Assembly: GCA_016937155.1 (NCBI GenBank)
Contig: JAFGWM010000071.1
Location: 1-64,000, forward strand
From: Deltaproteobacteria bacterium
Lineage (GTDB): Bacteria > Myxococcota_A > Polyangia > HGW-17
DNA length: 64,000 nt
Reading direction: 5' to 3'
Of the stretch, positions 868 to 6,184 are shown one piece after another. The translations under genes were made by a program, and so were the position numbers. The notes beneath the pieces were generated by a model. It saw nothing but the letters and a program-made list of their open reading frames with translations. It was not told the origin of the DNA and did not search any database. Position 1 is the stretch's first letter, and each line of letters opens with the position of its first letter.

Positions 868-2205
868 ATGAGACAAAATAAATGTATATTATTTTCTGGA
901 GGAAAAAAATATAACATAAATATATCAAAGAGATCAGATGTTGAAAAACAAATCGTTATGAGCAAAGGCTTGTTAGAACTGAGCAGTAGATATTATGAGT
1001 TTAAGCGTATTTTAGTTAAGGAAAATGAAGTAATTGAGCCATTCACAGGTATTGCCAGAACAGATATTTTTTCCGAAACTTTTGAATTTGTTCTGCCTTG
1101 CAGAGTAAGAATCAATAGAATTGATTATCGAAAAAAGACTGTTGAATTTACTGTGCTGGAAGATCCTGTTAGCCCAAGTGCTGATCTCCTGATTTCTGAA
1201 AAAATGAGAAGATCCGGAATCTGGATGGAAATATTTGATCCTGTAAGAGGCTCCTGTGCGGATCCCTTTATAACCCCATTTGAAATATTTATTTCGCTTT
1301 CAAATAACGAGCCTCCATACTCCGGAAATGAAGAAAATTGTCTCGAGCATGCATATCAGTATATATCAGAAATAATTGATGTAACACCAGAATTTAGAGG
1401 AGTAAAAATTAATTTTCTATTTCCTGAATCATGGAGAAAAATACCAGAAACTCAAGGTAATTTCACATTTCACTGTATAGAGGATAAATATCCGGCCTTC
1501 TTCCCAGGTGTCCTATTTACACAGAAGAAGTATCTCTACGGATTCAGTGATAACTCTGTCAGGTATTGGCATTTTGATTTCATTACTCTTGAGAAAATTC
1601 ATCAACTGGTTGTAAAAAATGAGTTTAATTATCTAACCCCGGTGGATGTTTTTAACTGTAATGATTATGGAAAATTGAATATCAGGCCATGGACATTGAT
1701 TAGTGATCTTGTGGAAAATGATTTGGACAACAGGGTTATTCGTGGAGGTCTTCTTACTGGTTTGGAAGGTATAAACTCTAATTCTGTACGTCCTCATGAT
1801 CGTTCGCTTACGTTTATATCAAATCCTAAAACCAGAGAAATGCTTCAGTTTCTGAGACCGGGGTTTGATCGTGACAGTTATTCCCCTTTGGTTGCATCCT
1901 GGTATTTTCCATCCCGAAAATCAGAAGTAAATGCTGGATTAAGGGGTGAAAAACGGATGTGTATAGAATGCGGTTATTGTGAAACAATTTGTCCCGCAAG
2001 GCTGGAACCCTCCATATTATGGAAACTTACAAAAGATCGTGATGAAAGGTTTTATCAGGAGGCTATAGAACTGGGTTTACGACGATGTATGGAATGTAAT
2101 CTTTGTAGTTATGTGTGTCCTTCAAAAATCGAACTGGGGCATACAATAACAGCAGCAAAACATAATTATTTTATTGAACAGGAACATTGCAGGAAGGAAA
2201 AATAA
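868..2205 (+). CDS. nqrA: NqrA-like subunit with two [4Fe-4S] motifs
   Basis: A 445-residue protein, first gene of a six-gene Na+-translocating NADH:quinone oxidoreductase-like operon. I start it at ATG 868 because AGGAG lies 9 bases upstream. An in-frame TTG at 748 has no such site and would add an unconvincing extension. NqrA-like traits are the block around residues 290-300 (RVIRGGLLTG) and the EMLQFLRPGFDRDS segment near 324-337. The C-terminus has two full ferredoxin-like motifs: Cys365/368/371/375 (CIECGYCETICP) and Cys407/410/413/417 (CMECNLCSYVCP). As I know the family, classic Vibrio NqrA lacks the first motif, while RnfC, its ancestor, has both. The protein may therefore bind two [4Fe-4S] clusters. 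No rnfB follows and the last gene is nqrF, so an Nqr-type complex is favoured. Confidence 0.8.
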   Translation: MRQNKCILFSGGKKYNINISKRSDVEKQIVMSKGLLELSSRYYEFKRILVKENEVIEPFTGIARTDIFSETFEFVLPCRVRINRIDYRKKTVEFTVLEDPVSPSADLLISEKMRRSGIWMEIFDPVRGSCADPFITPFEIFISLSNNEPPYSGNEENCLEHAYQYISEIIDVTPEFRGVKINFLFPESWRKIPETQGNFTFHCIEDKYPAFFPGVLFTQKKYLYGFSDNSVRYWHFDFITLEKIHQLVVKNEFNYLTPVDVFNCNDYGKLNIRPWTLISDLVENDLDNRVIRGGLLTGLEGINSNSVRPHDRSLTFISNPKTREMLQFLRPGFDRDSYSPLVASWYFPSRKSEVNAGLRGEKRMCIECGYCETICPARLEPSILWKLTKDRDERFYQEAIELGLRRCMECNLCSYVCPSKIELGHTITAAKHNYFIEQEHCRKEK

Positions 2206-3278
2206 TGAAATTCATTAGGAAATTCCTTGATAAAATCACAGAAAAGACTACTTCCGGACCTGCGAGGTTTATTAATCCACTTTTTGAAGCTGTAAATACT
2301 GCCCTGTTTGATCCGGATATTCCAGTCGACAGATCTCCGTATATAAGGGATGCCCTGAATGCAAAGAGATACGTTTTTTCAGTAGTTATTGCATTAACCC
2401 CGGTGCTTATGATGAGCACATGGTATTACGGTTACAAAGTGCTGCTGATGCTTTTGCTGGCTTATGGTATTGGAGGATTCATTGAGGCTCTATTTGCATA
2501 TTTCCGGAAAGAGACCATTTCAGAAGGTTTTCTCGTTACCGGGTTACTGTTTGTACTGATATTTCCAGTTACAATTCCTCTTGGGGTTTTTGCTGTTGCT
2601 GTAGTTTTCGGAATAATTTTTGGAAAAGAGGTTTTTGGTGGTGTTGGACACAATGTTTTTAATCCGGCTCTTGTTGGAAGATTATTTGTGTTTTTATCCT
2701 GGCCTAGAGCAGTCAGCCCCCCGGTTTATTTAAAACCAACTGAAAGACTATTCGAATATGCTTCGTCAACGATTGATGCTGTTTCACAGGCTTCCCCGCT
2801 TGCTCTTTTTAAGGGTACTGGTGTAAGTTCATCTTTTTCCACTCTTTTTCTTGGACCAAAACCAGGATGTATTGGAGAAATAAGCAGCTTACTTATTATT
2901 GCAGGTGGTATTTATCTCATTCTTATGAGGGTGGTTAATCTCAGGATACTTATTTCAATTTTAACTGCTGTTGTGTTGACACATTTTATTTTGTCACTTT
3001 TTAATACATCGATGATGCCCCTCTCATTGCAGATTACAGGAGGTGGCCTTTTGCTTGGTGCATTTTTTATGTCAAGTGATCCTGTAACCAGTCCCCGAAG
3101 TAATTCCGGGAAATATATTTATGGGGCTTTTATAGGTACCGGGGTTGTTATTTTCAGGCATTTTACACCTCTCATTGAAAGTATGATGTTCTCGATACTT
3201 CTGGGAAATGCGTTTTCCCCTCTTATGGATGAAGCAGCCATACATTTCCGTAAGAAAAAGGAGAGCAGTTATGAATAA
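2205..3278 (+). CDS. nqrB: Na+-NQR subunit B (membrane, FMN-binding)
   Basis: A 357-residue polytopic inner-membrane protein of the NqrB/RnfD family. Its ATG shares the last A of the nqrA stop (TAATG), with AGGAAGGA upstream. The conserved GHNVFNPALVGR stretch is at residues 148-159, and hydrophobic helices cover most of the chain. NqrB normally carries FMN bound covalently to a Thr in a (S/T)xAT motif by the flavin transferase ApbE. Here the matching segment is DAVSQASPLA (191-200), with Ser197 where Thr is expected. At 357 residues it is shorter than the roughly 410 of Vibrio NqrB and nearer to RnfD. It overlaps nqrC by 8 bases. The subunit should take part in Na+-coupled electron transfer to quinone. 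Confidence 0.88.
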   Translation: MKFIRKFLDKITEKTTSGPARFINPLFEAVNTALFDPDIPVDRSPYIRDALNAKRYVFSVVIALTPVLMMSTWYYGYKVLLMLLLAYGIGGFIEALFAYFRKETISEGFLVTGLLFVLIFPVTIPLGVFAVAVVFGIIFGKEVFGGVGHNVFNPALVGRLFVFLSWPRAVSPPVYLKPTERLFEYASSTIDAVSQASPLALFKGTGVSSSFSTLFLGPKPGCIGEISSLLIIAGGIYLILMRVVNLRILISILTAVVLTHFILSLFNTSMMPLSLQITGGGLLLGAFFMSSDPVTSPRSNSGKYIYGAFIGTGVVIFRHFTPLIESMMFSILLGNAFSPLMDEAAIHFRKKKESSYE

Positions 3279-3888
3279 AGGAATGGGTAAGGCTCTGCTT
3301 GTGACAATTATTATTGCTACTGTATGTGCTCTGGGTCTGGCATTTACAGAAAAAATGCTTCGAAAAAGGATTATTGATAATCAGGCTCTAGCTGAATCCA
3401 AATCACTGCTGAAAGTTCTTGGATTTAAGGATGTTAAACCATCTGAAATTAATGATATTATGAAAAATTCTGTTAAAAAGATACAGTTTGGAACATCTTT
3501 TTACCACAAGGCAACTAATGTTCAGGGGAAAATAATTCTGGCTTTTCCAATGAAAGGGAAAGGACTGTGGGGACCAATAAATGGGTATATAAGCACCGAT
3601 GAAACCCGAAGAACCATAGTTGATTTAATCATTACACGCCAGGAGGAGACACCTGGACTTGGAGCAGAAATTGAGAGTGAATCATTTTACTCTCAGTTTC
3701 GTGGAAGGAAAATTTTTGCAGATGACAATCCATCTGTGGTTAAAATTTCAGTTGCTCCGGGACGACGGTCTTCAGGAGAATATGAAGTTGACGGTATCAG
3801 CGGTGCCACTGAAACCTGTAAGGGTGTAAATAACATGATCAGAAATACTCTGACAAAAGCCATGGAGTACAGTCATGTCCAAAATTAA
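3271..3888 (+). CDS. nqrC: Na+-NQR subunit C (periplasmic FMN subunit)
   Basis: A 205-residue protein with one N-terminal membrane helix (about 8-25) and a periplasmic FMN-binding domain. The signature GKGLWGPINGYI is typical of NqrC and differs from RnfG. The flavin attachment motif DGISGATETC near residues 170-179 has the canonical SGAT threonine, and ETPGLG precedes it, as in the family. It starts at ATG 3271 with AAGGAGA upstream, inside the end of nqrB, and overlaps nqrD by 14 bases. FMN attachment would need ApbE, which is not in this window. Confidence 0.92.
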   Translation: MNKGMGKALLVTIIIATVCALGLAFTEKMLRKRIIDNQALAESKSLLKVLGFKDVKPSEINDIMKNSVKKIQFGTSFYHKATNVQGKIILAFPMKGKGLWGPINGYISTDETRRTIVDLIITRQEETPGLGAEIESESFYSQFRGRKIFADDNPSVVKISVAPGRRSSGEYEVDGISGATETCKGVNNMIRNTLTKAMEYSHVQN

Positions 3889-4480
3889 AAAGATATTTCT
3901 TAACGGAATATGGCTGGAAAACCCTGTATTTCACCAGGTTCTGGGAGTTTGCAGTGCACTGGCTGTAACTACCCGGGTTAAAAATGCAGTGGTAATGAGT
4001 GCCGCAGTTATCATTGTCGCTGCTCTGACAAATTTTACAGTAAGTGTTCTTCGAAAGATTATTCCTTTCAACCTGAGACTTATTATTGAAATGATCATCA
4101 TTTCAACGTTTGTGGTTATTTTCGATATAATTTTGAAAGCCTGGTTTTTCGATATGTCCAGACAATTGGGTCCCTATGTTAGTCTCATTATTACAAACTG
4201 TATTATACTTGGTCGAAGTGAAGCTTTTGCACTTAAAGAAGGGCCTGGACTGAGTTTTCTGGATGGAATTGCTTCAGGTCTTGGATATACCTTAATACTG
4301 TTGAGTGTCGCAACTGTCAGGGAAATACTTGGAACCGGTAGTTTCTGGGGTTATAAACTGATTTCCGATGCAGATATCCCGGCTAGAGGTTTATCCATGG
4401 CAGGTGGTGCATTCATTGTGATGGGAGTTCTTATCTGGGTGATGAATTCAATAAAGCTCTCCGGTAATAAGGAGGTTTGA
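3875..4480 (+). CDS. nqrD: Na+-NQR subunit D (membrane)
   Basis: A 201-residue integral membrane protein of the NqrD/RnfE family with about six helices. Family hallmarks are ENPVFHQVLGVCSALAVTT near the start and the inverted-topology mate ITNCIILGR. The Cys in each of these segments corresponds to the residues that hold an iron centre between NqrD and NqrE inside the membrane. It starts at ATG 3875 within the 3' end of nqrC, and nqrE begins 2 bases after its stop, so translation is coupled. The length matches the family. Confidence 0.93.
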   Translation: MSKIKKIFLNGIWLENPVFHQVLGVCSALAVTTRVKNAVVMSAAVIIVAALTNFTVSVLRKIIPFNLRLIIEMIIISTFVVIFDIILKAWFFDMSRQLGPYVSLIITNCIILGRSEAFALKEGPGLSFLDGIASGLGYTLILLSVATVREILGTGSFWGYKLISDADIPARGLSMAGGAFIVMGVLIWVMNSIKLSGNKEV

Positions 4481-4481
4481 A

Positions 4482-5102
4482 ATGGAACATTCACCTGTTC
4501 TTATTCTTATTGCGGCAGTTCTTACCAATAATATAGTATTTTCAGGTTTTTTGGGAATGTGCAGTTTTATAGCACTTTCCAGAAGAATTGATACAGCGGT
4601 GGGGATGGGTTTTGCAGTGACTTTTGTCAGTACCTTCACCACAGCCCTGAACTGGCTTATATATCATTATGTTCTTAAACATGGTGCACTTTCAGGGGTT
4701 TCTTTTCTGGATGGTGTCAATCTTGAACCATTTACAATGATAGTATTTATTGCTGTAATCGCATCATTTGTTCAGGTAGTGGAACTGATTATTCAGAGAA
4801 TATCTCACTCTCTTTATCAGGCACTTGGTATCTTTCTTCCTTTGATCACAGTAAACTGTGCGATACTGGGGGTTTCTCTTTTTATGGTAATTCGAGGATA
4901 CGGTTTTATTTCTTCAGTTGCTTTTGGTTTTGGTAGTGGTCTTGGATGGATGCTGGCAATTGTCTTGATGGCCGGTCTGCGTAGAAAAATGAGATTTTCA
5001 AAGATACCACCCGGGCTTGAGGGCATCGGAATCACCATGATTACAACGGGGATTCTTGCAATGATATTTATGGTTTTCAACGGTATGGTCAGGATAAACT
5101 GA
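4482..5102 (+). CDS. nqrE: Na+-NQR subunit E (membrane)
   Basis: A 206-residue integral membrane protein homologous to NqrD and RnfA. It shows TNNIVFSGFLGMCSF near residues 15-29 and ITVNCAILGVSLF further on. The two cysteines are the expected iron ligands shared with NqrD. GGAGG lies just before the ATG. Its stop overlaps the nqrF start as ATGA. Length and helix pattern fit NqrE well. Confidence 0.93.
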   Translation: MEHSPVLILIAAVLTNNIVFSGFLGMCSFIALSRRIDTAVGMGFAVTFVSTFTTALNWLIYHYVLKHGALSGVSFLDGVNLEPFTMIVFIAVIASFVQVVELIIQRISHSLYQALGIFLPLITVNCAILGVSLFMVIRGYGFISSVAFGFGSGLGWMLAIVLMAGLRRKMRFSKIPPGLEGIGITMITTGILAMIFMVFNGMVRIN

Positions 5103-6184
5103 TGTCTTTTTTACTAAGTGTACTTATTTTCATACTGATTATTACCACGTTAAGTGGTGGTGTTCTTGTTTTTACCAGACTTCTTACTCCGAAGGGTCAG
5201 ATAAAATTGAACATCAATAACTCTCAAAAGATTTTTTCTGTAAACAGGGGAGAAACTCTCCTGAATCTGCTTTATTCGAACTCTATCTTTATTCCATCAG
5301 GTTGTGGAGGAAAAGGTAGTTGCGGCCTCTGTAAGGTTAAAATCATAAGTGGAGAAAAAACACCACATCCCCATGAACAGGAATTTCTTTCTGCATCTGA
5401 TATGAAAAATGGGGTCAGATTAAGCTGCCAGATGAAATTGTTCGCCGATACAAGTGTTGAAATAAGTAAGGATTTTCTTGATGCTAAATTGAGAATAGCT
5501 GTTTTGGAGAAGACTACAATGGTGACTGGTGATATCCGCGAGATTATCTTCAGTTTGCCTGAACCTCTGTATTTCAACTGTGGTCAGTATATTCAGGTGC
5601 TTATCCCAGGTGATGATCAGGATAAAAACTTTAGGGCATACTCTATTGCTTCTCCCTCAGAGGAAACTTTGAGATTTGCCCTAAATGTAAAACTTATCCA
5701 GGGAGGAATGGGTAGCACCTATCTGCATTCACTCAAGGAAGGGGAACAGATTCAGTTTACAGGGCCTTATGGTGAATGGATGGTCGATGCATCTGAGACA
5801 ACCGATCTGCTTCTTGTTGGTGGAGGGGTTGGAATGGCACCAATGAGAAGTATTGTACAGACTGTGCTTTCTACTAACCCCAGGAAAAAAGTAACATTCT
5901 TCTTTGGCGGGTGTACCTTGAATGATCTTCTTTTCAGAGATGATTTTGAACGTCTGGCCAGTGAATATAAAAATTTTACTTATATATGTGCGGTCAGTGA
6001 TGAACTAAAGGAATGCACTGAAAGAAAGGGTTTTATTCATAAAGCAATTTCAGATGAGTATTCTCCTCCTTCCTCGGATTGCCAAGTTTTTCTGTGTGGT
6101 CCCCCGGTAATGATAGATGCTGTTAATGATGTTCTGATTGATAAAGGTATTGAAGAAAAAGATATTTTTTACGACAAATTCTAG
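5102..6184 (+). CDS. nqrF: Na+-NQR subunit F (NADH entry: FAD, 2Fe-2S)
   Basis: A 360-residue NADH-oxidising subunit. It has an N-terminal membrane anchor (about 3-25), then a plant-type [2Fe-2S] domain with Cys68, Cys74, Cys77 and Cys109 (CGGKGSCGLC ... SCQM), then a ferredoxin-reductase module. The latter has RAYSIASPS for FAD, GGGVGMAPMRS for NADH, FLCGPPVM, and the C-terminal YDKF. It accepts hydride from NADH and passes electrons on to the membrane subunits. It is shorter than the roughly 407 residues of Vibrio NqrF but keeps every functional motif. This gene is the main argument for Nqr over Rnf, since Rnf complexes have no NqrF. It is the last gene of the operon, and I see no strong terminator in 6185-6356. 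Confidence 0.93.
   Translation: MSFLLSVLIFILIITTLSGGVLVFTRLLTPKGQIKLNINNSQKIFSVNRGETLLNLLYSNSIFIPSGCGGKGSCGLCKVKIISGEKTPHPHEQEFLSASDMKNGVRLSCQMKLFADTSVEISKDFLDAKLRIAVLEKTTMVTGDIREIIFSLPEPLYFNCGQYIQVLIPGDDQDKNFRAYSIASPSEETLRFALNVKLIQGGMGSTYLHSLKEGEQIQFTGPYGEWMVDASETTDLLLVGGGVGMAPMRSIVQTVLSTNPRKKVTFFFGGCTLNDLLFRDDFERLASEYKNFTYICAVSDELKECTERKGFIHKAISDEYSPPSSDCQVFLCGPPVMIDAVNDVLIDKGIEEKDIFYDKF

Follow-up and report, generated by a model that had tools for sequence, protein, structure and literature searches.

A complete nqrABCDEF operon in the window (the whole 64,000-nt stretch analysed, from contig JAFGWM010000071.1 of a Deltaproteobacteria bacterium) probably encodes an Na+-NQR of ancestral type. 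Its NqrA would be redox-active, with two predicted [4Fe-4S] clusters wired to the riboflavin of NqrB as judged by analogy with RnfC. Reviews give the absence of cofactors from NqrA as a trait; alignments and trees of such operons show that it does not define the Nqr clade. The features of the operon are as follows.

868-6184, + strand: complete nqrABCDEF operon (gene order A-B-C-D-E-F, domain and family matches)
868..2205, + strand: nqrA variant (FeS-NqrA), 445 aa (ATG start at 868, AGGAG just 5')
1960..1992, + strand: first [4Fe-4S] motif, C365xxCxxCxxxC375, then P376 (read from the translation)
2086..2118, + strand: second [4Fe-4S] motif, C407xxCxxCxxxC417, then P418 (read from the translation)
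2205..3278, + strand: nqrB, 357 aa, N-terminal quinone-site segment (about residues 1-52) kept (alignment with Vibrio NqrB)
2793..2795, + strand: NqrB Ser197, predicted FMN-attachment position, DAVSQAS (alignment)
3271..3888, + strand: nqrC, FMN-binding subunit with the flavinylation motif DGISGATE (motif, domain/family match)
3875..4480, + strand: nqrD, both conserved intramembrane cluster cysteines (family match, alignment)
4482..5102, + strand: nqrE, both conserved intramembrane cluster cysteines (family match, alignment)
5102..6184, + strand: nqrF, 360 aa, single N-terminal hydrophobic segment followed by 2Fe-2S, FAD and NADH domains (PF00111, PF00970, PF00175)

The translation of 868-2205 reads C365-IE-C368-GY-C371-ETI-C375-P at the first NqrA motif and C407-ME-C410-NL-C413-SYV-C417-P at the second, and the starts of homologues from nine aligned members of the order coincide with the ATG at 868. 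The preliminary description had reported two complete CxxCxxCxxxC motifs in the first gene of an ABCDEF operon closed by a genuine nqrF; the motifs were confirmed by translation and domain searches, and 2Fe-2S, FAD and NAD domains were found in NqrF. It had also stated that the first motif is gone from NqrA of the Vibrio type, which holds for the motif as a whole and is amended here in that the second motif is also without its first two cysteines. Most canonical NqrA retain only the last two cysteines of motif 2, e.g. LCTFVCP. All eight cysteines are invariant in the nine aligned order members (26-43% identity to the window NqrA). Across 83 aligned FeS-NqrA with identity down to 18%, seven of the eight are invariant (all four in motif 2 and three of four in motif 1) and C368 is altered in one sequence. 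A chance origin of the cysteines was excluded, as 12 of the 13 invariant columns among the 83 homologues fall within the ferredoxin domain or immediately ahead of it, and seven of them are these cysteines. An assembly error was rejected because identical motifs occur in nine genomes of the order.

Among 59 relatives searched, the gene turned up in the genus, family and order to which the window belongs, and in other families of the class there is canonical NqrA without these cysteines. GTDB genomes were then scanned with a pattern made from motif 2, giving at least 80 loci; both motifs are present in 79 of 80 among the loci listed, a proportion that follows by construction because the pattern selects for the motifs. 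FeS-NqrA operons occur in at least 10 phyla (Thermodesulfobacteriota, Planctomycetota, Myxococcota as labelled, Spirochaetota, Omnitrophota, Elusimicrobiota, Lentisphaerota, Verrucomicrobiota, Eiseniibacteriota, Bipolaricaulota, Cloacimonadota and others), so that an oddity peculiar to the window genome was rejected, and nqrB-F lie downstream of most of the loci. In phylum samples unselected for cysteines, and counting the centre genomes, both motifs were present in 5 of 7 NqrA-like loci (phylum of locus L057), 6 of 25 (phylum of Planctomycetes bacterium Pan216) and 3 of 20 (phylum of L128). The Pan216 protein itself (L093) has an intact motif 2 and a first motif of the form CxxSxxCxxxCP, which would make it a form with partial loss or, possibly, one with a [3Fe-4S] site like that of 7Fe ferredoxins. 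No earlier account of a cluster-bearing NqrA was found in the open literature, subscription papers and preprints being outside the search.

The Nqr model of NCBIfam is the best named family for all six subunits, with each score below the equivalog cut-off, and the complex is therefore a divergent NQR. Three FeS-NqrA (L057, L106, L120) exceed the NCBI NqrA cut-off (TIGR01936) and are thus NqrA by the usual rule. The operon resembles Vibrio cholerae Na+-NQR (PDB 7xk3 / 8a1t-8a1y) in gene order, NqrF domains, the NqrB N-terminal quinone-site segment and the NqrD/E cysteines; the latter, which bind the intramembrane 2Fe-2S cluster, are present in every operon aligned. It differs in the eight cysteines of NqrA, of which the cofactor-free Vibrio protein has only the last two. 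The FMN-attachment residue of NqrB is Ser in the window (SQAS) and in a congener (L035, TTAS) and Thr in nearly all other operons; covalent FMN on NqrB of the window genus is not certain, given Ser at that position. The NqrA structure was modelled using AlphaFold on the 83-sequence alignment (a 9-sequence alignment modelled the ferredoxin domain poorly), giving a confident dicluster-type fold with pLDDT 90.7 (about 89-96 across most of residues 371-420) and pTM 0.91. Foldseek searches of solved structures with this model returned Vibrio NqrA as the nearest (TM 0.79-0.81) and RnfC as the next (0.61-0.65). The operon and Rnf have homologous core subunits, and NqrA shares with RnfC (Clostridium tetanomorphum 7zc6, Azotobacter 8ahx, Acetobacterium 9eri) a C-terminal ferredoxin domain that carries two CxxCxxCxxxCP motifs; unlike in Rnf, the FMN/NAD motif GxGGAxFP is missing from NqrA, NqrF replaces RnfB, and NqrB has the quinone-site segment.

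In three related FeS-nqr operons (L128:11510-15321, L107:4666-5752 and L103:8609-13113), the protein in the nqrF position has the N-terminal hydrophobic segment and 2Fe-2S domain only, without FAD or NADH domains; in L103 the 2Fe-2S domain is fused to a NuoE-like domain. A NuoE-like and/or NuoF-like gene lies 3' of the short nqrF (L107 ends at the contig edge), and the FNR input module seems, from this gene content, to have been replaced by a diaphorase of the complex I/HydABC type. In two Rnf operons from relatives in the class (L043:3643-4905, L044:761-2023), RnfC has both 4Fe-4S motifs and is without the FMN motif, and the RnfB frame is unusually long (589-688 aa).

A tree was built from concatenated NqrB, NqrD and NqrE (748 columns, NqrA excluded) and rooted on RnfD/E/A; the groups sampled for the trees were those outside Bacteroidota, Chlorobi, Chlamydiota and Gammaproteobacteria. 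Nqr is monophyletic on it (100/100), and the FeS operons form a paraphyletic deep grade with the canonical cofactor-free operons nested at its tip. The branching order runs from Bipolaricaulota and others through Omnitrophota with Elusimicrobiota, a Brocadiia MAG and the window's order to Phycisphaerae, Spirochaetes and Lentisphaerae, followed by Desulfobacterales, single MAGs and the canonical operons, with L093 beside the transition to canonical NqrA. Forcing the FeS operons into one clade was rejected (-172 log-likelihood units, p-AU 3e-105). The tree of NqrA and RnfC without the ferredoxin domain has a similar outline, and in it canonical NqrA is one weakly supported group (78/35, recovered in 80% of bootstrap trees). 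Because both trees nest canonical NqrA in the FeS grade, parsimony points to a single loss, or two at most, inside this grade as the origin of the cofactor-free Vibrio-type NqrA; with the tree unrooted, the loss reading would fail only if the root lay inside the canonical group. The window NqrA was thus not placed within ordinary NqrA, though the cysteines are widespread in deep Nqr branches. The "evolutionary intermediate" of the preliminary description stands as a large ancestral grade over many phyla and falls as a peculiarity of the window genome.

Two readings of the operon's origin are at odds with these results. A misannotated Rnf complex, for which the RnfC-like motifs would speak, has a negligible probability: the RnfC model TIGR01945 gives 56 bits of 246 on the window NqrA, in the ferredoxin part only; no match to PF13375 (RnfC_N) was found on it in the domain search; and the FMN motif is missing. 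The operon contains a genuine NqrF and no RnfB, it groups with Nqr in the tree (100/100), and a separate complete rnf operon lies on another contig of the same genome (L048), its RnfC having the two FeS motifs as well as an FMN motif, GMGGATFP. The idea that the NqrA gene is a misannotated rnfC was rejected by the missing FMN motif, the missing RnfB and the tree. Regain of the cysteines in separate lineages, or grafting of an RnfC ferredoxin domain onto NqrA, is very improbable. A few deep A subunits do score higher against RnfC than against NqrA, and the placement of L106 and L093 beside canonical NqrA allows one regain, but eight cysteines would have to be regained in register, repeatedly, and the two trees (NqrA without the domain, and NqrB+D+E) have the same general shape, with the FeS grade next to Rnf; repeated regain was rejected on this agreement.

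In the proposed working of the complex, electrons would enter from NADH at NqrF (FAD, 2Fe-2S) and pass by the NqrD/E cluster to the FMN of NqrC, the FMN of NqrB and the NqrB riboflavin, and from there to quinone at NqrB. NqrA would be derived from RnfC by loss of the FMN/NAD site, with the C-terminal ferredoxin domain and two predicted [4Fe-4S] clusters retained. In Rnf, the riboflavin lies 11.7 A from the second RnfC cluster and electrons pass from riboflavin to cluster (PMC9588780). By analogy with RnfC, we infer that the NqrA clusters assemble, are in electron-transfer contact with the NqrB riboflavin and carry electrons in turnover, which would make them a side port for single electrons on the cytoplasmic side. 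There is no known catalytic endpoint for them, because the terminal FMN of RnfC is gone, and the conserved cysteines may be needed for folding alone. The main options are that the port serves a soluble acceptor of more oxidising character or that the clusters play a structural part. Neighbour clustering found no conserved soluble partner beside FeS-nqr operons; the neighbours within lineages are response regulators, sensor-like proteins, Fur-type regulators and citrate synthase, with polyprenyl synthases at a few loci. A polyprenyl synthase gene lies directly 5' of FeS-nqr operons in several phyla (L112:5814-6836, L119:5541-6554, L128:6184-7077, L245:8082-8981), which is consistent with a quinone link. 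The window genome encodes one ApbE and a MenA-like prenyltransferase (weak score) adjoining a polyprenyl synthase gene, and no match to COX1 or cytochrome bd was found in its 95% complete assembly; this gene content is in keeping with anaerobic life and a pool of quinone.

A serious competitor, if the less likely one, is that the clusters assemble as relict or structural elements which hold the domain that docks NqrA onto NqrB and take no part in electron transfer during turnover, later lineages using a cofactor-free fold instead. No catalytic site remains beside the clusters, canonical NqrA has the same overall fold without them (TM 0.81), and their loss left no visible change elsewhere in the operon. 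Such a role did not, however, stop complete loss in canonical NqrA; moreover, the cysteines persist at 18-43% identity to the window NqrA while most of the protein drifts, and the homologous clusters of RnfC do take part in redox chemistry and lie close to riboflavin (PMC9588780, PMC11889175). It had also been proposed that the complex can use reduced ferredoxin as an electron donor besides NADH; this is unlikely. The domain is of the bacterial 2[4Fe-4S] type and would face the cytoplasm by homology with RnfC, Rnf in the genome implies a ferredoxin economy, and the lack of a COX1 or cytochrome bd match is as expected of an anaerobe. Against this, entry at the riboflavin would come past the Na+-linked steps of NqrD/E and NqrC and leave oxidation by quinone uncoupled, and in the direction of NqrF both electrons and Na+ would run downhill. 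A coupled ferredoxin pathway is therefore unlikely, since transfer from ferredoxin to quinone would skip the Na+-coupled steps and flow to NqrF would reverse the pump. Rnf already serves Fd:NAD+ in this genome, and a ferredoxin gene is not consistently adjacent to the operon. With the NAD/FMN site also gone from NqrA, the proposal received no direct support.

The FeS-Nqr operons also bear on the order of events between Rnf and Nqr. The FMN-site motifs of RnfC (GxGGAxFP and NGxECEP) are absent from all FeS-NqrA of the operon set, with decayed traces in the deepest branches. The N-terminal segment of NqrB, which in Vibrio makes up amphipathic helices that have been taken into the quinone site (PMC10643135), is present in the FeS-Nqr aligned and absent in RnfD. 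Because FeS-Nqr operons have NqrF, this segment and the loss of the FMN site, yet keep the cluster motifs, the replacement of RnfB by NqrF, the gain of the quinone-site segment and the loss of the FMN/NAD site preceded cluster loss, on the evidence of the sequences and trees. In the 2014 model, which links the disappearance of the NqrA cofactors to the exchange of RnfB for NqrF, loss of RnfB made RnfC non-functional, after which the FMN/NAD sites and cysteines were lost (PMC4014512). The same paper calls an early Desulfobacteraceae branch "anomalous" and ascribes it to gene transfer from Chlorobi/Bacteroidetes. An nqr operon of Desulfobacterium autotrophicum is on record (PMC2702500), and the Desulfobacterales operons sampled here, from strains other than those named in PMC4014512, carry FeS-NqrA that is closer to canonical NqrA than the window NqrA is (NqrA tree).

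The order of events proposed here runs contrary to the 2014 model (PMC4014512), and the current picture of the pump's evolution has to be revised. Reviews and structure papers describe NqrA as having lost every redox cofactor and as having no assignable direct function (PMC12174285, PMC11889175). With natural complexes that have and do not have the cluster motifs, and a partial form (L093) near the transition, the role of NqrA becomes directly testable. It is suggested tentatively, as a possible extension, that FeS-NqrA operons make up a sodium-pump class of wide distribution and separate function, in which NADH feeds in at NqrF and electrons would exit or enter both at quinone on NqrB and at a soluble one-electron partner on the NqrA clusters; the cofactor-free NqrA would then be a simplification of later date, possibly connected with an aerobic way of life. 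These operons may reveal a second electron port on the respiratory Na+ pump of many anaerobes.
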